NCBI GenBank assembly: GCA_944367565.1
Contig: CALVWR010000009.1
Location: 1 to 64,000, forward strand
Direction of reading: 5' to 3'
From: an uncultured Clostridia bacterium
GTDB taxonomy: Bacteria; Bacillota; Clostridia; Christensenellales; Borkfalkiaceae
DNA length: 64,000 bases
Shown: positions 43 through 20,267 of the stretch, one piece after another
How positions within the stretch are numbered: position 1 is the first letter of the stretch
How the letters are laid out: the number at the start of each line of letters is the position of its first letter
Program-made: the position numbers and the translations under genes
Notes under the pieces: generated by a model
The model's database searches: none
What the model saw: the letters and a program-made list of their open reading frames with translations, nothing else
What the model was told of the DNA's origin: nothing

Positions 43-72
43 ACAGTGGACAGCATTTTTATCCACTAAACA

Positions 73-155: not shown

Positions 156-166
156 AAGCACAAATT

Positions 167-195: not shown

Positions 196-213
196 GGAAT
201 TCTTAAACTTTTT

Positions 214-777: not shown

Positions 778-806
778 ACGGAAAGTTTATGCAATGTTTC
801 CTTCCT

Positions 807-1391: not shown

Positions 1392-1401
1392 CTCTTCCTC
1401 T

Positions 1402-4083: not shown

Positions 4084-4170
4084 GCCGCCGTGGTGAAATT
4101 GGCAGACGCACGGGACTCAAAATCCCGCGGTAGAGATACCGTGTCGGTTCGACCCCGACCGGCGGCACCA
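4084..4170 (+). tRNA. tRNA-Leu (anticodon CAA)
   Basis: Class II tRNA with acceptor GCCGCCG (4084-4090) paired to CGGCGGC (4160-4166), discriminator A and encoded CCA (4168-4170). The anticodon loop CTCAAAA gives CAA, and a long variable arm is followed by the T arm GGTTCGACCCC. A weak promoter (TTGCAT, then TACTAT or TATAAG) lies about 20-50 bases upstream, and a terminator follows at 4179. Confidence 0.95.
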
Positions 4171-4399: not shown

Positions 4400-6190
4400 C
4401 TATTCAGCACGTTGCGGATAACGGGAACGCAGCTTTTTTATTTTCGATTCGATAAATAATTCCGGTTCTTTTTTTCTTACCTCTGCTTGATTGCCCCATC
4501 CCCAATGCATCATCCGGACCACGCCGCATTCTTCGCAAAATTTTTCAAAATCCGAGATCCGTTTGTCAAATACGGCTTTCTGGCAATAATATGTTCCGAA
4601 TTCAGCTAATAAATATTTTACCGCAATCATTTCCCGCTTTACCCGCAAGCTCGCCACCGCATCTTCGCGCACAGCTTCTAACCCCATTTGCAATTCGGCA
4701 TCCCATTTCAAGGCCTCTTTCTCTTCCCAAAAGGAATTCTGCATGATATCCGGGGTCCACATCGTATCAAAAAACATATGCAGTCCGCGGGAACCTTCCC
4801 GCTTATATCTCTCTTCTTTTCTTTTTATAAATTTCCTTTTCATATTAAGATAATTCAGAATGAACGGCGCCGCGGCCCGATAATATTTCTTTATAAAATT
4901 TTCGATCAGTTCCCGCGTATCCAAAGTACAGTTGTACATCAGTTTTGCATTGCAATAGGTTTTTAAATCGCAAAAGCCCGTCGCATGATCCATCAGCAAA
5001 CCTTCGCTGTATACCATCTGCGCACCGATACTGTGATAGAACCGCATATTTTCCGCCATCGGGCTTATTGCGGGAAAATCCAACATATAATTATCGAAAA
5101 ATGTTTGATATTCCCACACCAAAAAGCCTTTCGCTACGGCTTTCCAGCCCATAAACCGTTCGTAAACGGCATGGTTACAGGGCGCAGTGATCGGGTGTAA
5201 TCCGCAGGCGTCAAGCGGGGCGATCTGTACCAGGATATTTTCGTTCAATACAACAGAAGGATGAACGGGTCGATAACTCCCGTTTTCTTTTACTACCGGG
5301 GCGTCTTTATACCGTTCGTAGGCAAAAATGCAAAGCTTAAAATCGCTTTCGGGAAACCTGCGTACTTTCCAACGATAGATCTCCTCCGCAACGGCGTTTG
5401 CAAAACGGTTTTGCGTGCCGGACGGGCCTCCGTATTTCCTGTCGCTTTCCCTGCAATTTTCGCAATCGCAGTGACCGGCATTGTCTTCGATCCCCAAACT
5501 GAAAAATTTTGCTTTCGGATGAGCTGAAATATATTTTTTCAGATTTTCGATAAAAACTTTCCGCGCGGCGGGGTTCGTCATACAGACCTGCTCGTAATTT
5601 TTTGAATAATATTCGGGATGAACAGGATCTCCGTTTTCGTTTTTCTCTATCGGCAACAATTTCGCTATCGCCGTATGCGCATATAATTCCCCCCATACCC
5701 CGTTCATTACTGGTTTTTCGGAAACATTAAAAGTCATGCTTTCCCCTAAAAGGCGCATGCGGTTAATAAACTCCGGAGAAACTTTTGAATACATGCCGAC
5801 CGGCCAATACCCCACCCAGCGCAACGGAACAGAAGGGACGACCAGTTTGTCCATATCGGGGACGAGGATATCCCCTACGAAAGGGATATCCGTTTCGTCT
5901 TCCGCATAAAATTCAACGCCGCACAAACGGTTCAATAAATCATATATTCCGTATAAGGCGGCGTGCGCCGACTGCCCTGCGATAAAAAACTTTTCTTTTT
6001 CGGAATACAACCGATGCGCGCCGGCGGGCAGCTCCTTGTTCACCGTGACGATAAAAATCGGGCCGTTATTCCGTTCGGCAAGCGTGCATCCGCACGCCTG
6101 CCGAACAAAACGAATCAATTCTTCAGCCGAAAAATCTAAAATTTTATCGCGATACGGCACATAAACTCCGTATTGACTGATATGCAACAT
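4400..6190 (-). CDS. DUF4838 domain protein, putative cytoplasmic glycosidase
   Basis: A 596-residue protein with no signal peptide, so it is predicted cytoplasmic. Residues about 25-105 resemble the small alpha/beta domain that precedes the catalytic barrel in GH20/GH67-type enzymes (GPIFIVTV, then ALYGIYDLLNRLCGVEFYAE). The middle carries the DUF4838 signature: FSLGIEDNAGHCDCENC followed by a conserved RFANAVAEEI helix. DUF4838 proteins are thought to be glycoside hydrolases, but substrate and catalytic residues are not established, so I do not assign a reaction. It is the last gene of the operon, six bases after the modular protein at 6197, with AAGGACAG before the ATG. Confidence 0.75.
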   Translation of the reverse strand: MLHISQYGVYVPYRDKILDFSAEELIRFVRQACGCTLAERNNGPIFIVTVNKELPAGAHRLYSEKEKFFIAGQSAHAALYGIYDLLNRLCGVEFYAEDETDIPFVGDILVPDMDKLVVPSVPLRWVGYWPVGMYSKVSPEFINRMRLLGESMTFNVSEKPVMNGVWGELYAHTAIAKLLPIEKNENGDPVHPEYYSKNYEQVCMTNPAARKVFIENLKKYISAHPKAKFFSLGIEDNAGHCDCENCRESDRKYGGPSGTQNRFANAVAEEIYRWKVRRFPESDFKLCIFAYERYKDAPVVKENGSYRPVHPSVVLNENILVQIAPLDACGLHPITAPCNHAVYERFMGWKAVAKGFLVWEYQTFFDNYMLDFPAISPMAENMRFYHSIGAQMVYSEGLLMDHATGFCDLKTYCNAKLMYNCTLDTRELIENFIKKYYRAAAPFILNYLNMKRKFIKRKEERYKREGSRGLHMFFDTMWTPDIMQNSFWEEKEALKWDAELQMGLEAVREDAVASLRVKREMIAVKYLLAEFGTYYCQKAVFDKRISDFEKFCEECGVVRMMHWGWGNQAEVRKKEPELFIESKIKKLRSRYPQRAE

Positions 6191-6196
6191 CTGTCC

Positions 6197-7363
6197 TTAA
6201 AAAATAAACACAGGGGAAATGTAAATATTCGACCCAGAAACAAACGCACCGCTATTGCCTGCCATCATCAATACAAGGTTTTCGCAAGTAATTCCCTTTT
6301 CATCCAAAGCCGATTTCGTTACGGAAATTTTTGTCCATTCGGAAGATATATCCGTATAACCGATACTGCTGTTCCAATTTTCTTCCTTGCCTACCTTTGC
6401 AGCCGGTCTTATATTAACATTTGATTCATCGGTTTTCACATAAAATACAATACCGTTTTTGATTTCCGTCGCTCCGGGTAGCGTTATATGGACATAAATT
6501 TGCCACTGATTTGCCGCCGCCGTTAATTGCAGCGACCCGCTATATTCGGTTTCATCCAACGTATATGATGCCGTATCGATGGCAACAGCCGTTGTTCCCG
6601 TGCAGGAAATCTGACGCAAACCTATTCCGGAATCAAAATAAGCGACTTTATCCGGAACGCTTTCCGTATGATAGAGAGCAAGCAGGTCCTCTATCGTTTG
6701 ATTTTCCGGCTTGGCATAAACCGGGGTAATCAAAAATTCCATGCCGTTCACAATTTCCCAATTTGATTGCGCCGATCCCGCTATTCCGATATAAAAATTT
6801 TTTATTCCGCCGTGTTCTTCTATTTCCGAAACGGGGATTTCCACATAGACCCAGGAATTGAGTTGAGAAACGTTCGCTTTATGCGTCCAATATTCTCTGT
6901 TTCCCTCTCCCGGCGCACCATGTCCTACGGTAGAGGGCTGTCCCGCCAACTGCATCACCCAAAAATAGATACTGTCGTAATCCGTCAGATCCGTAACGGA
7001 AGGGGATTCAAACTGCAGGAAAAACTGATATGTCGTCTGTTTCGTCTTTTTTACGTGCAGCGCGCCGTTAAAAAGCAGACCGGGTTCCGGAGAAACATCC
7101 GTTTCGTAATATCCGACTTCCCCGTAGTCGTCCCATGAATTCGTCGAATATGTGCCGAAATACGCCGCTTGCGTCATTCCCGATTCATAATCCAGATATA
7201 ATATTTTATTATCCTCTTTCCTTACGCTCTCTCCCACCGTAACGGAGTTATCCGAAATCGTTTTATTTCCTTCCCACTTCGCCATTACGGGAACGGCGAT
7301 CGCAGGGATCGCAAACACGAGCATCAAGCATAAAATCAATATGTTTTTACGAACTTTTCTCAT
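6197..7363 (-). CDS. exported two-module beta-sandwich protein, function unknown
   Basis: A 388-residue protein with a clear signal peptide (cleavage expected after VMA near residue 28). Two modules of about 165 residues follow, roughly 50-215 and 225-388. Each opens with a phrase such as VAYFDSGIGLRQIS or ILYLDYESGMTQ and closes with ITPVYAK or YISPVFIF. The same module occurs three times in the lipoprotein encoded at 9916-12033. The pattern suggests jelly-roll, carbohydrate-binding-like domains, which is inference from predicted beta-strand character and context. The start ATG overlaps the upstream stop (ATGA), and its Shine-Dalgarno AAGGAGG lies inside the end of the preceding gene. Confidence 0.7.
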   Translation of the reverse strand: MRKVRKNILILCLMLVFAIPAIAVPVMAKWEGNKTISDNSVTVGESVRKEDNKILYLDYESGMTQAAYFGTYSTNSWDDYGEVGYYETDVSPEPGLLFNGALHVKKTKQTTYQFFLQFESPSVTDLTDYDSIYFWVMQLAGQPSTVGHGAPGEGNREYWTHKANVSQLNSWVYVEIPVSEIEEHGGIKNFYIGIAGSAQSNWEIVNGMEFLITPVYAKPENQTIEDLLALYHTESVPDKVAYFDSGIGLRQISCTGTTAVAIDTASYTLDETEYSGSLQLTAAANQWQIYVHITLPGATEIKNGIVFYVKTDESNVNIRPAAKVGKEENWNSSIGYTDISSEWTKISVTKSALDEKGITCENLVLMMAGNSGAFVSGSNIYISPVFIF

Positions 7364-7902
7364 GATACAACCTCCTTAGCGGTTAGCGTCAATTCGATAT
7401 CAAAGGTGAGTTTTTCGCCGGTTTCACCGGCTTCGCCCAAAACGTAATTGATCCAAAAAGTACCTTCCTCCGCCGAGTCTTCGACGATTGCCGCGCCGTC
7501 TTTCAATAAAATCCATCCGCTCAGATCGGACGGAGGATCGGACAGTTGCGTTTCTGTTACTTGATAATAAAGTTTCGCCGTTCCCGTATCGCAATTTTTA
7601 AAATATATGGAGAGAGTCTGCGTTTCCGCGTTGAAATCGTTTCCCGTGCTCAGCGAATATTGCTGCGACACAATCCGCAGATTTTCCAGCCCCTCTGGAG
7701 CCTCCGCATCGTATTCGGCTAACCCGTCCACGTTTAATTTCTCGCCCGTAATTTGCGTAAGCGTGATATCATCCGCCATACCGACCGACCCGTCAGCATT
7801 CTTTGCGCCGTTCCAATTCGCAGATGCGACGGCGATTGCCCCGCCGCCGATCACGAGCGCCATGACAACTGCCAAGATCATGTAACTGCTTCTTTTTTTC
7901 AT
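7360..7902 (-). CDS. small exported protein with DLDFS-type module
   Basis: A 180-residue protein with an N-terminal signal segment ending ...VASA, followed by NWNGAK. The neighbour at 6197 has KWEGNK at the same place after its own signal peptide, so the two share a mature N-terminal motif. The rest (about 45-178) is a diverged copy of the module at the C-terminus of the protein at 7934 and in the lipoprotein at 9348: RIVS, LYYQVTE, DPPSD, a hydrophobic strand, then WINYVL. The arrangement recalls TasA/camelysin-like matrix proteins, but I cannot confirm homology. The ATG at 7902 has GAGG at suitable distance; a GTG four codons earlier overlaps that site. Confidence 0.62.
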   Translation of the reverse strand: MKKRSSYMILAVVMALVIGGGAIAVASANWNGAKNADGSVGMADDITLTQITGEKLNVDGLAEYDAEAPEGLENLRIVSQQYSLSTGNDFNAETQTLSIYFKNCDTGTAKLYYQVTETQLSDPPSDLSGWILLKDGAAIVEDSAEEGTFWINYVLGEAGETGEKLTFDIELTLTAKEVVS

Positions 7903-7933
7903 CGTGATTTTCACCTCGTTTTCATAATTTGAA

Positions 7934-9142
7934 TTAAACCGATTGTATGCCGAGAATAAACGAAACGTTTTTGCCGATATCGGAAATATCGTCGGAAGAC
8001 AGGATAATATTCAGATAATATGTTTTTGCTGTCATTCCTTCCGCAAGCAAAACCGTTCCTTGTTCAAAAACGGCGAAGCCCTCTTCCGTCGGGTCTGTCG
8101 GCGGGGTCGCGAGAGGCTCATCGGTCAGTTTGAAATACAGGGCGGAAGTTTCCGCCAGCCCGCTCGTCATTTCCTGCACCGTTATCTTATAGGTCCCCGA
8201 AAAATTTTCGCTCAGGATAACCGTAACGGCTTTGGAAACGATCCTGTTTCCCGTAGAAAAGTTATCCTGATCGTACGGGATCAGTCCCGAAAAATCCAGA
8301 TCGGAGGCGACCAGAAGCGGATCGGCCGTATTGTAAACGGTCACGGAAATCGTTTTTACGGAAGAGCCGATCGTTACGGTAACATCCGTATTTCCGCTTG
8401 CAACGGCAGTGATCGTTCCCGTTTCCGAAACGGAAACGACCTCTTCGTTATCGCTCTTATACGTCGCGACAAGTTCTGCGGGAACGACTGTCATCTCCGG
8501 CGTCATGCTTTGCCCCTCGTAGAGGGAAATTTCGGTTTGCGTCACTTCAAAATGTCCGCCGTTTTCAGGTTTCAGCGCTCCGTCCACATAACTTAACAGT
8601 TCTTCGCCGCGCTCCGCGCCCTTTGCAATCAACCCGCTTGCGACCTGCGCGATGGAGCGATACTGCGTTGTTTCGGAATAGATGTAATTTTCACCGTTTT
8701 TAATATACGCCCGCGCCGCGATGACCGTCCCGTACGCACTTTCGGGAATATCGTAAAGAACCGTACTGAACTTATCGTATCCTTCTTTATCGGAATTAGC
8801 CAGCCAAACTTCCGTTACTTTATCCGCCGCGTTTTCCGTTTCCGCCGTAAGTTCTTCCTCCGCTCCCAGCAGAGTCGAGGGAATCATCAACATTCCGTAT
8901 TCGGCGCTCGGATTCTCCGATTTGAATTCTTCGCTTATGTACGCGCTGAACCTGATCCCGGAACGATCTTCCTCTTCCTGCTCCTTGTAACGGACGGACG
9001 CGCCTTCTTCCATCAGAACGTTTTCGATATTTTCATTTCCTCCTGCGGAAACATTCCGATACATGAATACCGCCCCGATCCCGCACAGAAAAAACAGGAT
9101 CACGAAAACGGCTGCCAAAGATTTTTTTATATTCGTTCTCAT
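7934..9142 (-). CDS. exported Big_2-domain protein with DLDFS-type module
   Basis: A 402-residue protein with a signal peptide or membrane anchor at about 8-32. Residues 40-185 form a domain seen in Clostridia surface proteins (GIRFSAYI ... YGMLMIP ... AARAYI). Residues about 200-272 are a bacterial Ig-like Big_2 domain (TEISLYEGQ, then VVSVSETGTITAVASG), and about 280-402 the DLDFSGLIPYDQ module shared with the proteins at 7360 and 9348. It should be displayed at the surface, probably in adhesion or glycan binding. The ATG at 9142 was preferred because GAGGAG precedes it; it overlaps the stop of the 48-codon gene at 9139 (ATGA), implying translational coupling. Confidence 0.72.
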   Translation of the reverse strand: MRTNIKKSLAAVFVILFFLCGIGAVFMYRNVSAGGNENIENVLMEEGASVRYKEQEEEDRSGIRFSAYISEEFKSENPSAEYGMLMIPSTLLGAEEELTAETENAADKVTEVWLANSDKEGYDKFSTVLYDIPESAYGTVIAARAYIKNGENYIYSETTQYRSIAQVASGLIAKGAERGEELLSYVDGALKPENGGHFEVTQTEISLYEGQSMTPEMTVVPAELVATYKSDNEEVVSVSETGTITAVASGNTDVTVTIGSSVKTISVTVYNTADPLLVASDLDFSGLIPYDQDNFSTGNRIVSKAVTVILSENFSGTYKITVQEMTSGLAETSALYFKLTDEPLATPPTDPTEEGFAVFEQGTVLLAEGMTAKTYYLNIILSSDDISDIGKNVSFILGIQSV

Positions 9143-9285
9143 ATAAAAAACTCCTCGTCGTTTCCGAACGACCACTTGCTGTCGTCCCATTTCTGATAAT
9201 TTTCCTGCGACGACAGCATGATGTCCGCCGGCGTGAAGTTAAAAACTTCGGCGAACGGCGCACGATACGTCTTTTTTGCCTGCAT
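9139..9285 (-). CDS. 48-residue small protein coupled to the Big_2 protein
   Basis: A short open frame preceded by AAAGGAGG about nine bases before its ATG at 9285. The product starts MQAKKTYRAPFAEVFNFT and ends WSFGNDEEFFI; it has no signal peptide or membrane segment. Its TGA overlaps the ATG of the downstream gene by four bases, the usual layout for coupled translation. No family is recognised. The pattern (basic start, aromatic/proline patch, TPADIMLSS, acidic end) resembles the many unannotated small proteins next to exported proteins in Clostridia. It could be a regulator, chaperone or peptide precursor, or just a coupling cistron. Confidence 0.65.
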   Translation of the reverse strand: MQAKKTYRAPFAEVFNFTPADIMLSSQENYQKWDDSKWSFGNDEEFFI

Positions 9286-9315
9286 CTCTTTTTCCTCCTT
9301 TCAGAAAATTTATTC

Positions 9316-9336
9316 TTTACGGGGTCTTCCCGTAAA
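9316..9336 (-). promoter_or_regulatory. intercistronic hairpin
   Basis: Between the genes at 9348 and 9285, TTTACGGG (9316-9323 as the complementary arm) pairs with CCCGTAAA (9329-9336) around a five-base loop. It has no good T tract, so it looks like a weak attenuator or an RNA-processing/stability site inside the operon rather than a full terminator. Confidence 0.5.
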
Positions 9337-9347
9337 AAATCGTTTGA

Positions 9348-9902
9348 TCACTGTTCCGACGAATCAATGACTGCAATATCGAGAATAAAAGATACCTTTT
9401 TCCCCATATCTGCCGTTTCATCGGATTTTAACACAAGATTCAAATAATACTGTCCTGCAGTTTTTCCGTCCGTACCTTTTAAAACCGTGCCTTTTTCAAA
9501 AACCTCAAACCCTTCTTTTTCCAAATCTTCGGGAGGATTTTCGATCGGCTGCCCCGTTAATTTATAATACAGATCGGAAGTTGCCGATAAATCGCTTTCC
9601 ATCTCCCCCACACGCAGTTCATAGACGCAGTTTTGGAGAAAATCCGAACCGAGGACCACCGTGAAAGGTTCGGAAACGATTTTTCTGCCGTTATCCGCGT
9701 TCTCCTGGTCATACGGGATCAATTCCGAAAAATCCAGATCTCCCGCGGAAATACGGGTCGCCTCTTCGTCCGTCCATATATCTTCCGCTTCCTGCGAATA
9801 ATCGATCTCCGAATCGGACGAAGTCTGAGAATCGCATGCAGCTAACCCGGATAAAAACAGAAAACAAACTGCCAAAATCAGAAAATTTTTTAATTTTTTC
9901 AT
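9348..9902 (-). CDS. small lipoprotein with DLDFS-type module
   Basis: A 184-residue lipoprotein: the signal peptide ends LSGLAAC, with the lipobox cysteine near residue 24. After a Ser/Asp/Glu-rich linker comes one module (about 55-180) beginning DLDFSELIPYDQEN and containing EGFEVFEKGTVL and KKVSFILDIAV. The same motifs occur in the C-terminal domain of the Big_2 protein at 7934, so one was copied from the other. The ATG at 9902 follows AAGAGGTG by seven bases; a TTG two codons upstream is possible. Membrane anchored at the outer face; function unknown. Confidence 0.7.
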   Translation of the reverse strand: MKKLKNFLILAVCFLFLSGLAACDSQTSSDSEIDYSQEAEDIWTDEEATRISAGDLDFSELIPYDQENADNGRKIVSEPFTVVLGSDFLQNCVYELRVGEMESDLSATSDLYYKLTGQPIENPPEDLEKEGFEVFEKGTVLKGTDGKTAGQYYLNLVLKSDETADMGKKVSFILDIAVIDSSEQ

Positions 9903-9915
9903 ATGCAAACACCTC

Positions 9916-12033
9916 TTATTCCAGCCACATCGGAGAAATATACACTTGCGTATTTGCTCCGATATTATTCCATCCCGTACGGCAAACGGAGAGCATGAAG
10001 TTTCCGATCCCGCCGTTTTCGTTGATCGTGGATAAGGAGATCTCTACCCTGTTCCAATTTCCCGCATTTTCCGCCGTAGTAGTGTAAACGCTGTAACCGT
10101 TTCCATAGAACATTACAACATAATTATCGGAAGACGCGTTTTCCTGTTTTACGTAAAAGACTAATTTTTCGTATGAACCGATATCCTCCGGCAGATCGGG
10201 CGAAGTTACGGTAAGATTCATACTGTAAATCCCGCCGTTCGCGCCGAGAGCCAACGCCCCGGAGAACAATTTCCCCCCGACGGCGTATTCCGTTTCGGCT
10301 ATGGAATATTTGAACGTGGCCTCGCGGATCGTTCCGTCCACATTCTGGCTGAACGTCGTCTGCCTGAGTCCCATGGAAGATTCGTAATGCGCGACCTGCT
10401 CTTTTCCCGTTTCTTCCGGATATAAAATTTCAAAATCCTCTTCGGAATAAGTCGTTTTTTGCGCGTAAACCGGGGTCATGTAAATAGTACAGGCGCCGAT
10501 TCCGTTCCAATTGTAAAACCTGAGCGTTGCCCCCACAACGGATTCTTTCCCCGCAGACTCACGGTCGCTCGCCATGGAGGAAAAATCGTCGATGCTTATG
10601 CGGAGCCACTTATTCTTGTTATACATCCCGTAAGCAGGATCGTCCCCCAAAAAACCGGTGCCTTCGTTTCCGTTTTTAAACGTAGCGGTAGGATAAGCCC
10701 CCTCCGTTCCGTCCTCCAGATACAAATAAACATACATTTCCCGATAGTCAGACAGATCCTGGATCGCAGGCAGCGTAAACGTGACTTTGCTTTCATAACC
10801 TCCGGAAATCGTCAGCTTGGTGAGCATGTCGTCCGGCGTACCGTCCGGAGCGGATTGCCCGACAAAATCCCCCGGGCGGCTGAGCGTTCCGCCCGTTACC
10901 GAAACCTGGCGGCTTCCGATCTCGGAATCGAAATAGATGATCTTATGCATCCGTTCCTCCGCCGTATCGGTATATCCGTAATGTTCTTTCAGCTCCTCCA
11001 CTTCTTCCGCCACGATCTCGTTATTTAATGCCAGACACTGCTTTTCGGTATTCCGGTACCTTGCAAGGGCTGCGGGAGAAACCTGTTCTTGTTCTTCCGC
11101 CGTCAGCGCGCCGTATAATAACCGCGCCCTTTCCATTTCGCAGTCCGTGATCTCCAGATTATCGCGGTCAACCACTGCGGGAAGATCCGAAAACTCCTCT
11201 TCCACCCGCTCGGCGAGCCCGTCTTTCGGAACGGCATACATATCCGAAAAATAAAACGTCGCCGCATCCAGTCCGTCCACGTTTGCGCTTTGGAATATAC
11301 TGATCACGCCGCCGTCCAGCGCCCCTCCGAATTTTCCCTCGATATCCTCTTCCGTGATATAGACCAAATTCCATTCCTGCGGCTGCAGGATAAAACTCGT
11401 GATCCCGGGATTAGAGGAAAAAGAAAGGTTTTTCGTAAAGGAACTGCCGTTATAAATGTAAAAATAGATATACGAAAAACTCTCCATGTATTCGGTAGGC
11501 AGCAGATTATAAAAACGGAAATAGGGACGGTGCAGTTCAGAACCGAGAGTCAGGAAAGTGCTTCCCCGTTCATCTTTATAAGCAACTTCTTCGGTGTATC
11601 CCTTCGTCATTCCGAGCGCGGCCTCTATCACTGTCGTGCCGTATTCGGGAGAGGAAAAGTCAGCAACCAGTTCATCCCCTCTCCATCCCTGCCGGCCCGC
11701 AAAAATTTTTACGGTCTTTTTTCTGTTCTCGCCGCCTGCATTCGCCCCGATCGTCAAAGTATATTCTCCCGGTTCCTCCGCCAAAAACGTTCCGTTTTCC
11801 ACTTTGACCTCTTCACCGCCGAAGCGCACGGCGTAACGATATTCGATCGGAATATCGTCAGAATCCGTGACCCTGATTTCCGGCAGACGGACGGAATCCC
11901 CCGCACACACGTATTTCCGATCATAAGACGTGCGGATGAGCGGCGCATTATAATCCGCATTCCCGCCGCTGTTACAGGCAACTCCCACGAATACCGCCAA
12001 AACAAGAAGTACGGATAAAAAAATCTTTTTCAT
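9916..12033 (-). CDS. modular surface lipoprotein with three beta-sandwich modules
   Basis: A 705-residue lipoprotein (lipobox GVAC, Cys about 20). An Ig-like domain (about 30-112) is followed by module 1 (about 122-262, closing YFSDMYAVPK), a helical acidic spacer (about 270-355, e.g. LYGALTAEEQEQ), module 2 (about 360-530, opening IIYFDSEIGSRQ, closing IYMTPVYAQ) and module 3 (about 540-705, opening VAHYESSMGLRQ, closing YISPMW). Modules 2 and 3 match those of the protein at 6197. The domain plan suggests a glycan-binding surface protein. The ATG at 12033 overlaps the upstream stop by four bases and follows GGGGAGG. Confidence 0.7.
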   Translation of the reverse strand: MKKIFLSVLLVLAVFVGVACNSGGNADYNAPLIRTSYDRKYVCAGDSVRLPEIRVTDSDDIPIEYRYAVRFGGEEVKVENGTFLAEEPGEYTLTIGANAGGENRKKTVKIFAGRQGWRGDELVADFSSPEYGTTVIEAALGMTKGYTEEVAYKDERGSTFLTLGSELHRPYFRFYNLLPTEYMESFSYIYFYIYNGSSFTKNLSFSSNPGITSFILQPQEWNLVYITEEDIEGKFGGALDGGVISIFQSANVDGLDAATFYFSDMYAVPKDGLAERVEEEFSDLPAVVDRDNLEITDCEMERARLLYGALTAEEQEQVSPAALARYRNTEKQCLALNNEIVAEEVEELKEHYGYTDTAEERMHKIIYFDSEIGSRQVSVTGGTLSRPGDFVGQSAPDGTPDDMLTKLTISGGYESKVTFTLPAIQDLSDYREMYVYLYLEDGTEGAYPTATFKNGNEGTGFLGDDPAYGMYNKNKWLRISIDDFSSMASDRESAGKESVVGATLRFYNWNGIGACTIYMTPVYAQKTTYSEEDFEILYPEETGKEQVAHYESSMGLRQTTFSQNVDGTIREATFKYSIAETEYAVGGKLFSGALALGANGGIYSMNLTVTSPDLPEDIGSYEKLVFYVKQENASSDNYVVMFYGNGYSVYTTTAENAGNWNRVEISLSTINENGGIGNFMLSVCRTGWNNIGANTQVYISPMWLE

Positions 12034-13211
12034 GCAGAAGCCTCCCCTATCCAAATTTTTTCAATGAAAAAGTTACAACTCTTTGTTTCCGTACGGTCAA
12101 ACGTAACGCGTAAATCCCCGATCTCCTCCGGATTCAGAGCGCTGCCGTCCGGCAGGGCGAATTCGAGCGTCTGCCATTGAAACGGCGCCAATATCGCCGT
12201 AAAATTCTCCGTATTTCCAGCCGTATCCGAAACCGTAACCGTCAGCGTTCTATTGGTGAACGAATCGGTCATTACGCTCAGGCACAATCTTTTTCCGGAA
12301 CCCGCCATCCATGCCGATAAGTCTGCTTTCTTAAGATATTCGTCCGCAAACCGAAACCCGCAATACCTCATATTACCCTCAATTCCCGGCATATATTTAC
12401 AGGCAAGCGTTTCCGCGTTAAAATACATTTTCAGGCAGTTTCTCCCCGTCGCCTCCGAAGGGCTGAAAGCATATCCCGCCACGGGGAACAATGTGGTGCC
12501 GTAATAATCGGTAGACGCACGGGTAGTGGGATAATCGGAACACAGAGAATAATGGCGGATCATCGAAAGACTTTCCTCATCCGCAAAAGAAACGATCGTA
12601 TTCGCTTCCGGTGAAGGCACGTTTATTTCCGAATCATCCTCTTCATAGCGGATATTATCGAAAATCAGCTTCAAATCATAGTTTTCTTCGTATGCCTGCA
12701 AACAGGAAACGGCAAAATACAAACTGTAAAACTCGCCCTCTCCTATCGAAATGACACGGCTTTTCGCGATTGAAACGGAGTTCGCGCCGGGATGCAGAAC
12801 GTAAATATTCGCATCGTGAACATTCTCCGCCACCACGGTGTAATAAATCAAATGCACGTCGGCAGAAGAATCGTTGAATACATCCAGCGTAAAACCATGA
12901 ATTTTCTCATAATTCCCCAGATCCCCGGAAAATACCCCTTCCTTAAATGCCATCCTCGGCGCGTATTCGCTTTTGGTGTTGAGAGAAACGCTCTCAAACG
13001 TTACGGCCAGGGCAGTATTTCCGTCCGTCGCGTGTTCGGAAGTCAATTCAGCGTATCCTGCGAAATTATCGAACGAGATCGTACGCGTCGAATCGGCTTC
13101 TTCAAACGAGGTTATCAATTTTCCCGAAGAGGCGGTTTCGCCGCAGCCTGCAAAAAAAGTCATGGTAAACAATATCAAAAACGCCGCCGAAATACTGACT
13201 AATTTACGCAT
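12030..13211 (-). CDS. surface lipoprotein with two CBM-like domains
   Basis: A 393-residue lipoprotein with lipobox FFAGC (Cys about 23). Two domains follow. The first (about 32-205) starts LITSFEEADSTR and ends KLIFDNIRYEEDD; the second (about 215-393) starts TIVSFADEESLS and ends CNFFIEKIWIGEA. Both have the layout of jelly-roll carbohydrate-binding modules: a surface-strand opening, then a closing strand with an aromatic or ionic tip. No enzyme motif is visible. It sits between the GH123-like lipoprotein and the three-module lipoprotein, overlapping the latter by four bases, so it is probably made in similar amounts. Confidence 0.65.
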   Translation of the reverse strand: MRKLVSISAAFLILFTMTFFAGCGETASSGKLITSFEEADSTRTISFDNFAGYAELTSEHATDGNTALAVTFESVSLNTKSEYAPRMAFKEGVFSGDLGNYEKIHGFTLDVFNDSSADVHLIYYTVVAENVHDANIYVLHPGANSVSIAKSRVISIGEGEFYSLYFAVSCLQAYEENYDLKLIFDNIRYEEDDSEINVPSPEANTIVSFADEESLSMIRHYSLCSDYPTTRASTDYYGTTLFPVAGYAFSPSEATGRNCLKMYFNAETLACKYMPGIEGNMRYCGFRFADEYLKKADLSAWMAGSGKRLCLSVMTDSFTNRTLTVTVSDTAGNTENFTAILAPFQWQTLEFALPDGSALNPEEIGDLRVTFDRTETKSCNFFIEKIWIGEASA

Positions 13212-13221
13212 AAACCCCTCC

Positions 13222-15693
13222 TTATTCTATCGTTGAGTAATACATATCGGATATTTTTATTATCCCGGGATCGACAGGAACATAATGCCCGTTTTCAAAA
13301 TATCCGTTAGAAAACAATAAAACGATTTTATCGGCGTCGGCAAGATTGCCGCATTCTTTGTAGATTTGTTTTACGGTGATCGCGTTATCTCCGGGCAAAA
13401 GGCAATATTCATCCAGAGTATAAAACTGCTCGTCTTTGCCTATTGCGACCGAAACGGTAACTTCCCTGCTTGTATTGACGATGAACATAAGATCTTCGAT
13501 TTTATCGAGCGACGCATCGAACAAAGACGTTGAAAATCCCGCATAAGGTTTTAATCTCAACATTTCGATATCCGTCTCTCCGCGGCTCTTCAGATCAAAA
13601 ACCGCATAATCGCCCTCTACGGTGACGCTGCTGCCGTCGGAACAAAGCATGCCTTGCGCCCCCGATTCGGAAACATCCAGCCCCAGCTGCTTTTTATGCC
13701 CGACAAAATAATTAAACTGCCAGCCGTCGGACGAAGAGATCGCAAGCGTGTTTTCCGCTTTATCCATAACGATTTCTGCCGTGTAAATTATATAGCCGTT
13801 CTTTTTCGTCTGCGAAACGATCCTTCCGCCGCTCACCGTTACCGACTGTGTGTCGGGAACGACAAAACGAACGGAGGCCGTCGTGCCGGCGATATCCGAA
13901 TCCAACAGATTGAATCCGTAATTTTTCGCATAAAGGATCATTTCGGCGACTTCTCTGCGTAAATTCAGAAACGAAGCGTCGTCTGAATTGTATTTTGCCC
14001 CTTCAAACAATTGATCGTAGATCGGCTGCAGAACAGCATGGATATCAAAATCGGTTTCCGTGTTTTCCGCCGTTTGAGCATATAAATTTTCCAGTTCGTT
14101 GAGCATATTGAAATCTTCCTGCCCGTCTCTCAATGCGGCGGCGCGGATACTGCCGAGCGGCGTGGAAGAACCGTATTTGCTCCCCGGATATAAATAATAG
14201 CCGTCTCCCGGAACATTATAATACCTGCCGGGATCCGTATAGGGATCCACGGGGATCATGGAAGCGTATCCGTGCGTGATTTTAGAATACAAATATACCG
14301 CCCAATATAAATAGCCGTCGATATCATAAGCGTACTGCATCCACCTGACAAGCCGGTTGGCGATCAGATAATCGTCCAGTTGATTCGATACATAAGGATA
14401 TTGCGGACTTTCGCAATTATACCACCAGGCTTCTCCCCCGCTGCGAGCCGCCGTCGCCGCATGATTCTGCCGGCCCAATGTCGTATCGTAAATATTGACT
14501 TTCGGGCAATATGCCGAAACCGAATCCTGCAATTCGTCGTTATATGCGGTGGTGATCACGACGGGAACATCTACAGCTGCCGTGAGTTCCGCCTTATAAG
14601 CCGACATCTCTTCATCTGTATATCCTCCTTCCGTTTGCACCCTTTCATAATAATCCGAACGGTCGAGCCAATCGAGGATCTGATCCTCGACCTTATCGAT
14701 CGCTTCGCAATACCGTTTCACGGTCGGATAAGCGGATTGCGCGGGTTCATCCGGCCCCACGATCACGGCGCGTTCCAATAAGATCCGCCCCGGATAGGAG
14801 TTTTCGATAAGAAGCTGCATTTTTGCGAAATGTTCGTTGGAATTGACTGTGCCGAACCCTTTGTCTGCGCCCCTTCCGGGAGTGATCGTGAACGTGGTAA
14901 AATTCGGATTGTCCCAATATCTCAGGATTTCTGCAAGCCATGCTTCGCGCGTATCGTTTTCGACGGGAAGCTGCTGCAAACAGGTCTTGTACTCGTTCAG
15001 AAAAGTTTCAAAATACGTGCGTTCCATATCGACAGAGTTGTCCATCTCGCCCAGCATCAGTTGCGTTTCTCTGTGTTCGGTCGCATAGAAAGCGGTTTTT
15101 CCGTAACACTGCGTGATGTCGATATCCCAAACTTCCACTTTTACCGGGATCTCTTCCGTTTTTCCGCCGACGGACAACGTAAAGTTTCCCGTATAAATCC
15201 CCGCCTTCGTTTCGCTCGTGGTTTTAAACTCGATCGTAATAGGCTGGTTGCATCCCTGCTCCACAACGTTTTCCCCCGACTTTTTCGCGAGGTCCATGGG
15301 TAAAAGCATATCGGGCACATATCCCGCTGGGTAATCGGTATTTGCCGTATTCCATTTATTGGTCAGGATCATTTTCTGTACATATACGGCAATATTTTCC
15401 TTGGGGAATACGGTGCCGTCCGACAGATGCAGATCGCTCACGGTCAAATCGAAAGAAGTTTCTTCTTCCGGAGTCAATACAATCTGCGCGCCTTCTGTTT
15501 CGCCTTTTGCCATCTCCACGTCGATCGACGCGGTAAAAGACGGATAGTCGTGCTCATCCCTCATGATTTTCAACGTGGAATACGTACTCCAAACATCGTA
15601 ATTGACGGAAGGAGCCTTTGCGCAGCCCGCAAACATACAGCAAGCCAAAACCGCGCATAAAAATCCGGACATAAATTTTCTTTTAGGTTTCAT
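13222..15693 (-). CDS. DUF4091 / GH123-like lipoprotein
   Basis: An 823-residue lipoprotein (lipobox CMFAGC). An N-terminal beta domain (about 35-195) precedes a barrel-type domain ending in the DUF4091 signature: RLVRWMQYAYDIDGYLYWAVY, then PGDGYYLYPG and IRAAALRDGQEDF (about 445-540). The family includes GH123 beta-N-acetylgalactosaminidases, which use substrate-assisted catalysis, and many uncharacterised enzymes. A C-terminal region (about 690-823) closes KISDMYYST like the modules of its neighbours. It would trim an extracellular glycan before import; the sugar released is not certain. It lies 13 bases after the solute-binding protein gene. Confidence 0.78.
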   Translation of the reverse strand: MKPKRKFMSGFLCAVLACCMFAGCAKAPSVNYDVWSTYSTLKIMRDEHDYPSFTASIDVEMAKGETEGAQIVLTPEEETSFDLTVSDLHLSDGTVFPKENIAVYVQKMILTNKWNTANTDYPAGYVPDMLLPMDLAKKSGENVVEQGCNQPITIEFKTTSETKAGIYTGNFTLSVGGKTEEIPVKVEVWDIDITQCYGKTAFYATEHRETQLMLGEMDNSVDMERTYFETFLNEYKTCLQQLPVENDTREAWLAEILRYWDNPNFTTFTITPGRGADKGFGTVNSNEHFAKMQLLIENSYPGRILLERAVIVGPDEPAQSAYPTVKRYCEAIDKVEDQILDWLDRSDYYERVQTEGGYTDEEMSAYKAELTAAVDVPVVITTAYNDELQDSVSAYCPKVNIYDTTLGRQNHAATAARSGGEAWWYNCESPQYPYVSNQLDDYLIANRLVRWMQYAYDIDGYLYWAVYLYSKITHGYASMIPVDPYTDPGRYYNVPGDGYYLYPGSKYGSSTPLGSIRAAALRDGQEDFNMLNELENLYAQTAENTETDFDIHAVLQPIYDQLFEGAKYNSDDASFLNLRREVAEMILYAKNYGFNLLDSDIAGTTASVRFVVPDTQSVTVSGGRIVSQTKKNGYIIYTAEIVMDKAENTLAISSSDGWQFNYFVGHKKQLGLDVSESGAQGMLCSDGSSVTVEGDYAVFDLKSRGETDIEMLRLKPYAGFSTSLFDASLDKIEDLMFIVNTSREVTVSVAIGKDEQFYTLDEYCLLPGDNAITVKQIYKECGNLADADKIVLLFSNGYFENGHYVPVDPGIIKISDMYYSTIE

Positions 15694-15706
15694 ATCGTTC
15701 CCCTTT

Positions 15707-17266
15707 TTATATCCCCATCTGGGATTTTATCGTACTCCATCTATCGAGAACGGTTTGATAGTTCGTAATCCAAACCTGGTATGCATCCATACTGCCGGAA
15801 GAAAACACGGTTTCATAAGTATAGACCCCGTTCATATGCATATCGCTCACGCCGCCTTTATGAAACAGAATATCTTTTCCCGCAAGTTCCGTCCATTTGA
15901 CGTTCGGGTTCATCATGTATTCGATCTTTTCTTTGGTAAACCCCGTAGAATTCATATATTCCGCATCCGAAGCGTAATCATAACGGAACGGAGACATGTT
16001 CCCGTAGGAATTTTCAAACAGAGCGGAGATCGCTTTATCCGATCCGTAATAAGACAAAAACATTTTCGCCTTGTCGATTTTTGTGGAATTGGACGGAACG
16101 TAAAAGTTCAGATCGCAGTGCGGCGCGACCATGCTGCGTGCGTCCAACACCGCGTCCAGGATCTCCTGCCGCGTGTAAGTTTTGCCGTCTTTCCCCGTTG
16201 AGATCGTAAACTCCGGAGCTTCGGGATCTAACCCGTCGAGCATTCCGTCTGCCCAATCGACGAGTTTTGCCAAATCGCCGTCCCCGATTCCCAGCTTGTC
16301 GCCCAATGCACTGATCACCGGCAGACGCATGATCCCCACATCCAGTTCATCCCTGGTGTAATTGTGGCGCATTTCGTTTTCGATCCAGTCGCCGTTCATC
16401 ATCATGAGAATCTTCCGATCCGCTCCGGTACCGTTCCCGCCGCTTAAAAAATAACCTTGTGCGGTAGTAAAATCCACGCTCGTCGAATACGGATCCATAA
16501 ACTTATTATCGGGATCGAAAAGTTCTTCCACGACATATAATTCTTCCAACGCGCCCTGATAAGTCATGACTTCCGGCGTATAACGGTTCCCATCGGGATC
16601 ATACCCCTCCAAAAACGCTTTATATGCTTCGCTGCCTTCGTATTGCGCCTTCCAGATATACGAACCGTATTTCCAATAAGAATCGAGAGAAGAATAGATA
16701 AACGGAGTATATCCTTCCCCTACCGCGGTATGACACAAGTCGATAAGTTCGTCCGTCGTCCGGGGAATATCCCACTCGTCCTTCCAAACTTTCTTATTGT
16801 AAATAAGGGCGATCGTTCCCGTTACTGCGGGGAACGTATAATATTCCCCGTCCACCTGAAACCAATCCACATATTTCGGCAAAATTTTGTCTTCCACCGC
16901 TATATCTTCACCGTAAACATCCCCCGTCCACACATCCGTAAGATCCGCGACGTATTGAGTGCCCTCGTCAAACCAGTTCCAATGATACTGCGTCATCATA
17001 TAAATATCGTTTGTGGCGACGCCGGATTCTACCGTCGCTTCCAAACCTTCCAGATATTCGGAAGTCGTAACCTTCACATTGATGCCGGTATCGGCGGTAA
17101 ATTGTTCGGCGATCGCATTCAGCCAGTCTTCCGCTCCGTATCCGGCTTGATACGCCGTTATATACAGGGTATCCAGATCCTGCGTCGGATCGCCGGAGCA
17201 GCCGGAAAAAAATCCCGCGGCAGCAAACAAAAACGAACACAATACGGTTATCACTCTTTTTAACAT
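15707..17266 (-). CDS. carbohydrate ABC transporter solute-binding lipoprotein
   Basis: A 519-residue family 1 extracellular solute-binding protein with lipobox FFSGC (Cys about 23). It shows the pattern of sugar-binding proteins: an N-terminal strand LDTLYITAYQAG, then AIAEQFTADTGINVKV, and the hinge strand ALIYNKKVW near residue 150. At over 500 residues it is longer than simple maltose-type proteins, like those for complex oligosaccharides. It is followed upstream by its two permease genes at 17281 and 18178, with gaps of 14 and 3 bases. No ATPase gene accompanies it. Confidence 0.9.
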   Translation of the reverse strand: MLKRVITVLCSFLFAAAGFFSGCSGDPTQDLDTLYITAYQAGYGAEDWLNAIAEQFTADTGINVKVTTSEYLEGLEATVESGVATNDIYMMTQYHWNWFDEGTQYVADLTDVWTGDVYGEDIAVEDKILPKYVDWFQVDGEYYTFPAVTGTIALIYNKKVWKDEWDIPRTTDELIDLCHTAVGEGYTPFIYSSLDSYWKYGSYIWKAQYEGSEAYKAFLEGYDPDGNRYTPEVMTYQGALEELYVVEELFDPDNKFMDPYSTSVDFTTAQGYFLSGGNGTGADRKILMMMNGDWIENEMRHNYTRDELDVGIMRLPVISALGDKLGIGDGDLAKLVDWADGMLDGLDPEAPEFTISTGKDGKTYTRQEILDAVLDARSMVAPHCDLNFYVPSNSTKIDKAKMFLSYYGSDKAISALFENSYGNMSPFRYDYASDAEYMNSTGFTKEKIEYMMNPNVKWTELAGKDILFHKGGVSDMHMNGVYTYETVFSSGSMDAYQVWITNYQTVLDRWSTIKSQMGI

Positions 17267-17280
17267 AAAAATCCTCCTTT

Positions 17281-18174
17281 TTAACCTTTTAAAGCGCCGA
17301 TGTGAACGCGCGTCATGATCGATTCCTGCAAACAGATAAAAATGATCAGTATGGGCAGCAAAGATATGAACGCGCCGGCAAAATATACGGGTTGATTGGC
17401 ATAATATTGAATTTTGCGTTCATAAGCGTAAATCCCGGCCGCCAGCGTATAATTATTCGGAAGGAATAATAACGGCGTTTGATAATTGTTCCATGCGCTG
17501 ATAAACGCGTTTACAAACAATATGCTTACAGCGGGCAGAACGAGCGGTACCATAATTTTCAGAAAAACTTTGAAATTGCTTGCGCCGTCTATAAAGCCCG
17601 CTTCGGCAATCTCCCAGGATATACCTTCAAAAAACGCATGAATATATAAAAACGTAGCGTTAAATCCCGATAAATTTGCAATCAGCAAAAGCGGGGAATC
17701 GATAAAACCGAGCTGAGAATATAATTTATATTGCGCCGGCAGCGTGCCGTAAATGGGAAGCATCTGCACCGCAATGATCATGGAATACAGGAAATGTCTT
17801 CCGCGGAATTTATATTTGGACACGACATACGCAACGCAGGTAGGACTTAAAAGAGAAACAAAAGAAGAACCTCCCGCATACCAGACCGAGTTGAAAAACA
17901 TTTTCATAAATGAATTATTCTGCACGCTCAATTCGGAAAATGCCAAGATATAATTAGAAAAATACATCGGCCACGGAAATTTGATGGGGTTTTCGATGTA
18001 AGCGCGTCCGTTTTCCATCAGCGAGATCATAAAACCGTAAAATACCGGTAACATCAGCCCGACGGCATACAGGGAAAACAGAACCAAAACGATTGCGAAC
18101 ACAGCCTGTTCCCCTTTCGACTTTGGCAAACGGTTTTTTATTTTACGTTTTTTTAATTCCAAAATATTCTGCAT
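17281..18174 (-). CDS. carbohydrate ABC transporter permease, MalG type
   Basis: A 297-residue inner-membrane protein with about six transmembrane segments. The cytoplasmic EAA loop reads EAGFIDGASNFKVFLKIMVP (about 205-224), which contacts the ATPase. The C-terminus RVHIGALKG is typical of MalG-type subunits. It pairs with the MalF-type permease whose gene ends three bases upstream of this start, and the binding protein gene follows, so the three form one importer. Confidence 0.93.
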   Translation of the reverse strand: MQNILELKKRKIKNRLPKSKGEQAVFAIVLVLFSLYAVGLMLPVFYGFMISLMENGRAYIENPIKFPWPMYFSNYILAFSELSVQNNSFMKMFFNSVWYAGGSSFVSLLSPTCVAYVVSKYKFRGRHFLYSMIIAVQMLPIYGTLPAQYKLYSQLGFIDSPLLLIANLSGFNATFLYIHAFFEGISWEIAEAGFIDGASNFKVFLKIMVPLVLPAVSILFVNAFISAWNNYQTPLLFLPNNYTLAAGIYAYERKIQYYANQPVYFAGAFISLLPILIIFICLQESIMTRVHIGALKG

Positions 18175-18177
18175 CGC

Positions 18178-19095
18178 TTAATCCTCCTTCGCCCTCGTAA
18201 GCCTGCGGACCAGCAGTACAATGGGAAGCCCTACCACCGTAAAAAACAGGCCGATCGCCGCCGGATAATTATATGAATTGTTAAAATACACTAAATCGTA
18301 GATCCAATAGGAGATCGTACTCGTATTCCAAGCCCCCTGCGTAAACAACAGGACCGGACCGCTCGCACCGAAAATACCGATAAAATCAAAGAGGATCATG
18401 GTGGACAGCGTCGGGGCGATTCCGGGAAGAATAATATGGAATATTTCCGAAGAAATACGGGTGCCGTCAATACGCCCCGCCTCCAGAATTTCCGGTTGCA
18501 GCTGGTTTAAGGCGCCTCCCAATAAGATCATATTTCCGCCGGTTCCAAAAAAAACGTTGTAAAAAAGCAGAGTCGGCATGGCCCACTCATAACTCGCCGT
18601 AAAGGAAACCATTTCTCCCCCGCAGGCAAGGATGAGCGCATTCAAAGGCCCGTTTCCCGCGATAAAATATTTAAAAAATACGACCAGCACCGTTTGCGGC
18701 AGGATAACGGGCAGATAAAACACCACGCGGAACAATTTATACGCCTTTATTTTTTTATATATAAAAATCGACATAAAAATCGAACACGGTAGCGTGATGC
18801 CCAACGAAGAAACGAAAAACAACATTGTGTTTCTTAATGAGATCAAAAAACGCCCGGAGGACAGCGACATATCGCGAAAAAGCGTCCTGAAGTTCTCAAA
18901 CGTCCAAATTACTCCACCGTCGGGCGAATCTATCTGAAAAGCGAGCAGGATCGCATCTAAATTCAAGTAAATATAAAATATACAAAAATGTACGATCGAA
19001 ACGGCCAGCATTGCCATAATAAAAAATCTGTCTTTCCATTTCCGTTCTGTAAATTTTTGTAAAAACGTGTTTTGCTTTGCACTTTCCTGTACCAT
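18178..19095 (-). CDS. carbohydrate ABC transporter permease, MalF type
   Basis: A 305-residue permease, first gene of the large glycan operon. It has a cytoplasmic start, about six membrane segments and the EAA loop LEAGRIDGTRISSEIFHIIL (about 214-233). Its promoter is the AraC-box promoter at 19206-19268, about 110 bases upstream. AGGAAAGAG precedes the ATG. It forms the heterodimeric channel with the MalG-type subunit; the ATPase must be supplied by another locus. Confidence 0.93.
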   Translation of the reverse strand: MVQESAKQNTFLQKFTERKWKDRFFIMAMLAVSIVHFCIFYIYLNLDAILLAFQIDSPDGGVIWTFENFRTLFRDMSLSSGRFLISLRNTMLFFVSSLGITLPCSIFMSIFIYKKIKAYKLFRVVFYLPVILPQTVLVVFFKYFIAGNGPLNALILACGGEMVSFTASYEWAMPTLLFYNVFFGTGGNMILLGGALNQLQPEILEAGRIDGTRISSEIFHIILPGIAPTLSTMILFDFIGIFGASGPVLLFTQGAWNTSTISYWIYDLVYFNNSYNYPAAIGLFFTVVGLPIVLLVRRLTRAKED

Positions 19096-19205
19096 ACTTT
19101 TCTCTTTCCTCTCAGAATCGTTTTTCTTTCAGAAACAAAACCGATGTTCCGAATACAGCGGAAAATTTTTACCGTTCCCGAGCCGGATTTTTCCTTGCTA
19201 TAGAA

Positions 19206-19268
19206 ATTATATAATATGTATTTTTCCATTGCATTATCAATTTTGCATACCGCCTTCGTTATTTTGCA
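19206..19268 (-). promoter_or_regulatory. promoter and AraC boxes of the glycan operon
   Basis: On the minus strand the -10 TATAAT lies at 19206-19211. Two TGCAAAAT boxes follow upstream at 19240-19247 and 19261-19268, exactly 21 bp apart, two helical turns as expected for tandem AraC half-sites. The -35 is poor, which fits activation. The same boxes with the same spacing and the same distance to the -10 occur before the sialidase-like gene at 22187. Confidence 0.75.
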
Positions 19269-19314
19269 ATTTTGGGCAAAGCCATAATTTCCCTGTTCTT
19301 TTTTTCAGCAACCG

Positions 19315-19347
19315 TTGACAAATAATGCACATATTGCTATAATGTGC
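19315..19347 (+). promoter_or_regulatory. araC-type gene promoter with overlapping palindrome
   Basis: TTGACA (19315-19320) and TATAAT (19338-19343) are both perfect and separated by 17 bp. The palindrome GCACAT-N9-ATGTGC (19327-19347) overlaps the -10 and would let a repressor block the polymerase. The start point should leave only about 15 bases of leader before the ATG at 19365. Confidence 0.85.
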
Positions 19348-19364
19348 AAAAAAGGAGAGCTCTT

Positions 19365-20267
19365 ATGGCAAAACAGCGTTTTATCAATTTTCATACTCAA
19401 GATATCCTTCCCCCGGCGTTATCCCCCGTAAACGATGTTTTGCCGTTTTTGACCTGTTTCACAAAATCGCAAAACGAACGCGTTCTGAACGAATCTCATG
19501 CGGAAGGACGCTTCCACATCCATTCCTATTTGGAAATTTTCTATTTTGAATCCGGCGAGGGGTTTTTGGAAACGAAAGAGGAAAAAATCCATTTAAAGGC
19601 AGATGATTTTCTTATCATCAATGCAAATCACGTGCACCGACAGTATTCCGACAACCAACAGCCCCTCGTTTATTATTGTTTTGACGTCACGAACCTGAAC
19701 CTGTCCGGATTCGAGCCGAATACCATTTCCGACGATACTTATAAATTAAAATCCTTTTCTTCGCCGAACAATGTCATTTACAAAAAAATAAAACAGCTCC
19801 TGCAAATCATAAAAAAGCAACAAATCAATTGTTTTTTCGAAATACAGGCGCTGGTTTATCAGATTTTGTCGCACGCGCTTTTATTATTTGTAAAAAGGAA
19901 TGACGCAATCGAAAAAGATAATTTTGAAAAACACGTAAAAGATTACATCAATACGCATTTTCAAAATCCTATCACATTGGACACTTTGGAAAATATTTTC
20001 TTTGTTTCAAGAAGTCAGCTTTCTCACCGATTTAAAATCGCTTACGGGATCTCGCCGATCCGGTATCTCATCAACGTAAGATTGGAAAACGCCAAAATAT
20101 TATTGGAAAAAACGGATTACGGCATTACGGAAATTTCTCAGAAAGTAGGATTCGGAAATTCAAATTACTTCAGCGATCAATTCCGGAAATACAGGGGGAT
20201 GTCGCCTACCGAATACAGAAAATATCAGCGGGACGTATTCATCGAAAAGCCGGGCGGAAATACTTAA
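19365..20267 (+). CDS. AraC family transcriptional regulator
   Basis: A 300-residue regulator. The N-terminal half (about 30-120) is a cupin-like ligand domain (GRFHIHSYLEIFYF, then ADDFLIINANHVH). The C-terminal 100 residues carry two AraC-type helix-turn-helix units, including FVSRSQLSHRFK and the family signature around GITEISQKVGFGNSNYFSDQFRKY (residues split here by region about 255-285). It is transcribed away from the transporter operon and lies between that operon and the nanA-sialidase operon, both with matching tandem boxes, so it is the obvious local regulator. AAAGGAG precedes the ATG at 19365. Its ligand is unknown; a sialic-acid or amino-sugar product is likely. Confidence 0.92.
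   Translation: MAKQRFINFHTQDILPPALSPVNDVLPFLTCFTKSQNERVLNESHAEGRFHIHSYLEIFYFESGEGFLETKEEKIHLKADDFLIINANHVHRQYSDNQQPLVYYCFDVTNLNLSGFEPNTISDDTYKLKSFSSPNNVIYKKIKQLLQIIKKQQINCFFEIQALVYQILSHALLLFVKRNDAIEKDNFEKHVKDYINTHFQNPITLDTLENIFFVSRSQLSHRFKIAYGISPIRYLINVRLENAKILLEKTDYGITEISQKVGFGNSNYFSDQFRKYRGMSPTEYRKYQRDVFIEKPGGNT

Follow-up and report, generated by a model that had tools for sequence, protein, structure and literature searches.

Which task is served by the repeated, beta-sandwich-like modules that recur in a group of surface proteins of an uncultured Clostridia bacterium (Christensenellales; Borkfalkiaceae)? The window, i.e., the whole stretch of DNA analysed, comprises 64,000 nucleotides of contig CALVWR010000009.1, and the genes in question are closely packed between positions 4400 and 19095, all on the minus strand (Table 1). 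A preliminary description had proposed a Gram-positive surface glycan-capture system without SusC/SusD. We consider it likely that this is a Gram-positive glycan-utilisation locus whose surface proteins hold glycan by means of a jelly-roll module, designated A, that resembles carbohydrate-binding modules (CBMs). The A modules are homologous, their gene order recurs in relatives and a GH123-like enzyme of the locus has a conserved Asp-Glu pair.

The proteins were split into modules, which were compared all against all using BLAST and phmmer, with E-values relating to a tiny database. Modules 9916b, 9916c, 6197a and 6197b were revealed to be one family (A), with E-values from 1e-10 to 1e-4, and for the pairs 9916c-6197a, 9916c-6197b, 9916b-6197a and 9916b-9916c none of 1000 partner shuffles reached the real score. 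The pair 6197a-6197b was weaker (14 of 1000 shuffles equally good), its membership being carried by common links to other modules. Opening phrases (YLDYESGMTQ, YFDSGIGLRQ, YFDSEIGSRQ) and closing strands (ITPVYAK, ISPVFIF, MTPVYAQ, ISPMWLE) were found at the positions given for them earlier. For 9916a, no pairwise similarity to the other A modules was detectable, 249 of 1000 shuffles being equally good; against a profile built solely from other genomes, however, it scored 59 bits, compared with 41–65 bits for the four core modules and 10.8 bits for the best of 1800 shuffled proteins. The occurrence of the roughly 165-residue module three times in 9916 and twice in 6197 thus holds.

Protein 12030 matched the same profile weakly (12 and 8 bits). 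In profile-profile comparison by hhalign, its two modules (with 13 orthologues) and the C-terminal part of the GH123-like protein (with 15 orthologues) were related to module A at E-values between 4e-16 and 4e-8 (Table 1), while ten control regions, including other GH123 domains, module B (see below), an immunoglobulin (Ig) domain, a binding protein and a permease, gave E-values of 0.01–0.8. Some GH123-like orthologues match module A directly, e.g., that of locus L071 at 2e-17. What had been called a related layout of 12030 and the GH123-like C-terminus is homology, seen only at the profile-profile level with relatives. The repeats of the preliminary description are real, and its count of at least seven becomes eight for A as judged by homology (9916 has three, 6197 and 12030 have two each and 13222 has one), because the other-genome profile adds 9916a and profile-profile comparison adds both modules of 12030 and the GH123-like C-terminus. 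The alternative that secreted proteins of low complexity and rich in beta-strands resemble each other here by chance draws on 9916a, 12030 and the GH123-like C-terminus being inseparable from shuffles pairwise; its probability is next to nil given that no shuffle equalled the core pairs and that the profile-profile matches came with ten clean negative controls, and it was refuted by the other-genome profile, shuffle and profile-profile tests.

An AlphaFold2 model of 9916c, made with 80 sequences, predicts an all-beta jelly-roll with good confidence (Table 1), in agreement with the beta-sandwich-like character suspected before. The best Foldseek match in the PDB was 8x8h (1.3e-5), a carbohydrate-binding domain from a putative pectate lyase, followed by CBM11, CBM8, CBM4, CBM61, CBM16 and domains of GH101 endo-alpha-N-acetylgalactosaminidases (E 1e-5 to 1e-3). 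By match to solved CBMs, at moderate TM-scores, the predicted fold of module A is CBM-like. Profile scans place module A outside every Pfam family, as the earlier remark about modules without a nameable family had implied: the A copies in the window had no Pfam match and reached no curated CBM profile, and direct Pfam and NCBIfam scans of 6197, 9916 and 12030 returned nothing. Among all 80 A copies, Pfam reported CBM_4_9 in two (best 3.7e-4), CBM30 in two (0.0099) and SGBP_B_XBD in one (2e-4).

The 80 copies share one invariant column, a Trp that is probably structural, and have a mean column identity of 13%. Such divergence, together with the lack of a visible conserved ligand site, would suit beta-sandwiches that bind nothing and act as accessory spacers for the enzymes and the binding protein, serving stability or the assembly of a surface complex. 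CBM families likewise vary in their ligand residues with specificity, however, and whole proteins of nothing but A modules and anchors exceed the needs of spacing, which makes this explanation improbable.

When 301 genomes of the same family were searched with a profile of the four core A modules, 29 proved to contain relatives. Upon iteration of the A profile over the open reading frames (ORFs) of 40 loci (threshold E 1e-3), 174 domains were obtained in 69 proteins of 38 loci. The GH123-like gene lies directly behind the solute-binding gene in 18 loci (L066, L069, L071, L076, L078, L082-L088, L091-L094, L096, L099), and in 11 the next gene encodes a lipoprotein with two modules and about 310–480 residues (L066, L071, L076, L078, L085, L088, L092, L093, L094, L096, L099); in L082, one gene separates the two. 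The order of permeases, binding protein, GH123-like protein, two-module lipoprotein and a further multi-module protein recurs in about 12 loci, and where the GH123-like gene is missing (L063, L064, L065, L067, L068, L073, L075, L079), a multi-module A protein adjoins the binding gene. Locus L096 (contig C7:5001-25000) is a second cassette in the window's own genome, comprising permease, binding protein, GH123-like, two-module and multi-module proteins. In L083, which holds the closest solute-binding relative, the GH123-like gene (31-1635, minus strand; 534 aa) departs from its family near the 3' end and is apparently frame-broken or an assembly error.

Many of these loci had been chosen by their match to A. 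For seven (L082-L088), the solute-binding protein was the sole criterion of choice; A proteins occur in six of these, the exception, L083, being a 6-kb contig end. In a less selected test, 37 genomes drawn as relatives were searched with the A profile and Pfam SBP_bac_1. A solute-binding gene was found within 15 kb of 28 of 56 A clusters, against about 7.5 expected from gene density, a count in which some bias is left, since the A profile was partly built from loci near solute-binding genes, and which contig ends bias the other way (e.g., G004:C149, where the binding gene at the contig edge was scored absent). Outside the window's genus, the corresponding figures were 15 of 30 clusters and 3.0 expected. 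In a class-wide draw, only 11 of 391 genomes, including two of this family, matched A at 1e-6; the expansion of A therefore lies mainly in this family.

An adhesin or scaffold role, in which A modules would bind host protein or neighbouring cells or provide spacing from the wall, and the link to the ABC (ATP-binding cassette) transporter would reflect co-regulation in a host-contact operon, was weighed against these data. Among the jelly-rolls matched by 9916c are also FlaA1, a MAM domain and domains from the receptor side of clostridial binary toxins, and these matches cover non-catalytic domains for receptor binding as well as a protein of filament sheaths; A is found together with helical linkers, Big_2 and domains of Ig-like type; and some A proteins of relatives are very long (open frames of more than 2000-3600 aa) and lie away from any binding protein. 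The recurrence across genera of the position directly behind solute-binding genes, the fusion of one A module to a GH123-like enzyme and the rank of CBMs as best fold matches argue the other way, and we regard this role as unlikely.

The enzymes of the locus bear on its substrate. With 65 bits in Pfam, well above the curated cut-off of 23.1, and a catalytic-type pair, Asp315-Glu316, that is invariant in 16 aligned orthologues, the GH123-like protein can be assigned to GH123 by sequence. Mutating the equivalent pair abolishes the activity of SiaBb3 (PMC12856340), and the wider GH123-related family includes enzymes releasing N-acetylgalactosamine (GalNAc) or Gal-beta1-3-GalNAc (PMC11087588). The NanA-like protein scored 349.6 bits for PRK04147 (cut-off 281) and 298 bits for TIGR00683, below the cut-off of 382. 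In 21159, FRIP and Asp boxes were read and the Glu/Tyr region was aligned to solved sialidases, so that the FRIP arginine, the Asp boxes, the Glu and the Tyr nucleophile mark it as a putative GH33 sialidase. Among solved structures, the DUF4838 protein matched only the N-terminal region of NagJ (0.001), and no solved GH163 relative was found; presumably, DUF4838 is linked to GH163. The sialidase-like, NanA-like and GH123-like genes hint at a sialylated beta-N-acetylhexosamine (beta-HexNAc) glycan, e.g., of Sda type. As the substrate, a sialylated animal-host glycan of beta-GalNAc or N-glycan structure is no more than a tentative choice, which may well prove wrong. Enzymes near the cassettes of relatives are mixed (GH20, GH28, GH38, GH31), so the substrate would differ between cassettes.

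On the reading we favour, tandem A modules of dedicated non-enzymatic surface proteins would keep glycan chains bound to the cell surface, where the GH123-like lipoprotein, itself with one A module, would cut beta-HexNAc linkages. The solute-binding protein next door would take up the released oligosaccharide, the two permeases would import it, and cytoplasmic enzymes (sialidase-like, NanA-like, DUF4838) would process the imported sugar. We infer glycan binding by module A, the joint action of the proteins and the direction of glycan flow. No TonB Plug domain was found in the genome by searches whose controls match E. coli and Bacteroides, SusD not having been searched for. Glycan capture without SusC/SusD is the best reading because CBM-like modules, a sugar ABC transporter and glycosidases occur together and a TonB plug does not; of the original proposal, the modular surface proteins and their setting stand, and the binding itself keeps the status of a prediction.

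Several observations weigh against this reading. The Foldseek TM-scores of 9916c are about 0.31-0.53, and the likeness is therefore at superfamily level. In favour of the reading, the 80-copy A profile matched PDB sequences of a sialidase module (4c1w, 1.9e-6, partial), CBM27 (1pmh, 1.3e-4, near full length at positions 5-152 of 159) and CBM22, but these E-values are inflated, because designed Ig proteins match at 4e-6 as well. Conserved ligand-site residues were not identified among the 80 copies, no anchor is visible in 6197 or 7360, and half of the A clusters, some of them on short contigs, lack a binding protein nearby. In the 95%-complete genome, NanE reached 21.7 bits, below the cut-off of 27, and GlcNAc (N-acetylglucosamine) 2-epimerase (GlcNAc_2-epim) was not found; the sialate route is thus incomplete, and with a NanA-like gene present and no gene for N-acetylmannosamine epimerisation found, the locus would not class as a sialic acid catabolic operon.

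Little is known of how Gram-positive gut bacteria retain complex glycans on their surface prior to ABC import, and a family outside Pfam with many copies directly behind solute-binding proteins provides concrete, testable candidates; with it, surface proteins that lack a name, of which there are hundreds in such genomes, become interpretable. The odds appear about even that A is an undescribed, lineage-expanded family that makes dedicated surface glycan-binding lipoproteins a standard fourth or fifth part of the sugar-ABC cassettes of this bacterial family, as a Gram-positive functional counterpart of SusD and the surface glycan-binding proteins (SGBPs), with the GH123-like protein as recurring partner.

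Table 1. Features of the A-module locus and adjoining genes (window coordinates)
Feature	Position	Strand	Evidence or remark
DUF4838 protein, possible glycosidase, no signal peptide	4400..6190	-	Pfam DUF4838 2.2e-54; downstream end of locus
A module 6197b (residues 219-388)	6200..6709	-	BLAST 1.8e-9 vs 9916c; 55.8 bits with other-genome profile
A module 6197a (residues 46-218)	6710..7228	-	BLAST 4e-8 vs 9916c; 64.9 bits with other-genome profile
B-module protein 7360, signal peptide	7360..7914	-	phmmer 1e-10 vs 9348
7934: N-terminal membrane anchor, extracellular domain, Big_2, B module (7937-8332)	7934..9190	-	Pfam Big_2 1.2e-8
48-aa small ORF with AAGGAGG ribosome site	9142..9285	-	stop overlaps likely ATG of 7934
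B-module lipoprotein 9348	9348..9908	-	lipobox LAAC, by reading
A module 9916c (residues 541-712)	9919..10434	-	AlphaFold2 model: mean pLDDT 84.8, pTM 0.82
A module 9916b (residues 366-540)	10435..10959	-	51.6 bits with other-genome profile
A module 9916a (residues 121-285)	11200..11694	-	59.4 bits with other-genome profile; pairwise not seen
N-terminal Ig-like domain of 9916	11695..11952	-	also found in many of the relatives' multi-module proteins
Lipoprotein 12030, two diverged A modules (~12612-13139, ~12033-12614)	12033..13139	-	hhalign E 6e-12, 4e-16
C-terminal A module of GH123-like lipoprotein	13225..13716	-	hhalign with 15 orthologues E 4e-8
GH123-like lipoprotein	13222..15693	-	Pfam GH123_cat 3.5e-17; PDB 8k2j 3.7e-18
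Sugar-ABC solute-binding lipoprotein	15707..17266	-	SBP_bac_1; nearest NCBIfam CPR_0540 and NgcE, both below cut-off
Two ABC permeases (17281-18174, 18178-19095)	17281..19095	-	Pfam BPD_transp_1
AraC-type regulator, divergent	19344..20267	+	upstream, beyond the permeases
N-acetylneuraminate-lyase-like (NanA-like) protein	20264..21133	-	NCBIfam PRK04147
GH33-like sialidase, no signal peptide	21159..22187	-	FRIP motif, Asp boxes

The locus had been delimited as 4400-15693, which omitted the ABC transporter upstream; it reaches to at least 19095 and probably on to 22187, including the NanA-like and sialidase-like genes. It contains no ABC ATPase gene, and no Rfam element was found apart from a tRNA at 4084-4167. 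Ahead of the AraC gene, the site 19315-19343 matches a sigma-70-like promoter consensus at 12 of 12 positions; overall, promoter and terminator scans of the locus were not richer than those of shuffles. Beside the locus lies a large serine recombinase gene (24493-26031, plus strand), where the G+C content is 42% as against about 52% further on, possibly the border of a mobile or variable region.

The all-against-all comparison recovered, separately from A, a second family (B), to which 7360, 9348 and the C-terminal part of 7934 belong (E 1e-8 to 1e-40; 0 of 1000 shuffles), as the preliminary description had recognised, with 53% identity between 7934 and 9348. Module B is unrelated to A in profile-profile comparison, and its relatives beyond this genome are matches at noise level. 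Structure prediction and fold comparison, which supported A, yielded no reliable match for B: the model from three sequences is of low quality (pLDDT 61.7), and no Foldseek hit had an E-value below 1e-3. By sequence comparison, B is a separate family, as yet unexplained.

Lipobox cysteines were read in 9348, 9916, 12030, 13222 and the solute-binding protein 15707. The N-termini of 6197, 7360 and 7934 lack one, 6197 and 7360 having ordinary signal peptides and 7934 a hydrophobic N-terminus, so 6197 is not the lipoprotein it had been called. The genes of 6197 and 7360 (6197-7914, minus strand) overlap by 4 bases, and both proteins, unrelated in their modules, carry the motif A-[KN]-W-[EN]-G-x-K directly after the signal peptide, the mature start ANWNGAKNADGSV of 7360 being similar to AKWEGNKTISDNSV of 6197. 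The true start of 7934 is probably at 9142, to which the 48-aa ORF (MQAKKTYRAPFAEVFNFTPADIMLSSQ...) with its strong ribosome site is coupled by overlap. The loci of relatives examined hold no second copy of this ORF; peptides resembling its product are common in Clostridia. The unnamed extracellular domain of 7934 (residues ~40-215) also occurs in relatives, where it is part of A-module proteins (L092, L093, L094, L102; 6e-18 to 5e-6).

Compared with known systems, module A shares fold and size and a weak profile similarity with CBM27, CBM22, CBM11, CBM61 and CBM4, but no A copy consistently passes a Pfam CBM cut-off, and A is joined to a catalytic domain only in the GH123-like protein. The latter resembles NgaDssm and NgaCa (PMC11087588) in its N-terminal beta-sandwich, DUF4091/GH123 catalytic region and Asp-Glu motif; it differs by its low identity to solved enzymes, at which specificity is not readable from sequence, and by its extra C-terminal A module. 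As in Bifidobacterium bifidum SiaBb3, which acts in Sda-antigen degradation (PMC12856340), sialidase-like and GH123-like functions are encoded together, although SiaBb3 unites both domains in one surface protein, whereas the sialidase-like protein here lacks a signal peptide and would function within the cell. The SGBPs of Bacteroidota (SusE/SusF type) are likewise surface lipoproteins of tandem beta-sandwich modules encoded beside genes for glycan capture and transport, but the transporter here is of the ABC and not the TonB-dependent type, a susC/susD pair is absent from the locus, and with one of 80 A copies weakly matching SGBP_B_XBD, homology is not established. No paper treating DUF4091 together with an ABC transporter was found in a search covering part of the literature. 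The closest likeness in gene content is to Gram-positive polysaccharide utilisation loci (gpPULs), whose defining parts (PMC10318527), a regulator (AraC), an ABC solute-binding protein with two permeases and a glycoside hydrolase (GH123-like), are all present at 13222-20267 in a genome without a TonB plug. gpPULs are described as lacking SGBPs, CBMs fused to endo-acting enzymes doing that job (PMC10318527), whereas here separate non-enzymatic module proteins are encoded directly behind the binding protein. The A-module locus therefore looks like a variant of the gpPUL kind that has dedicated surface glycan-binding proteins of predicted function.

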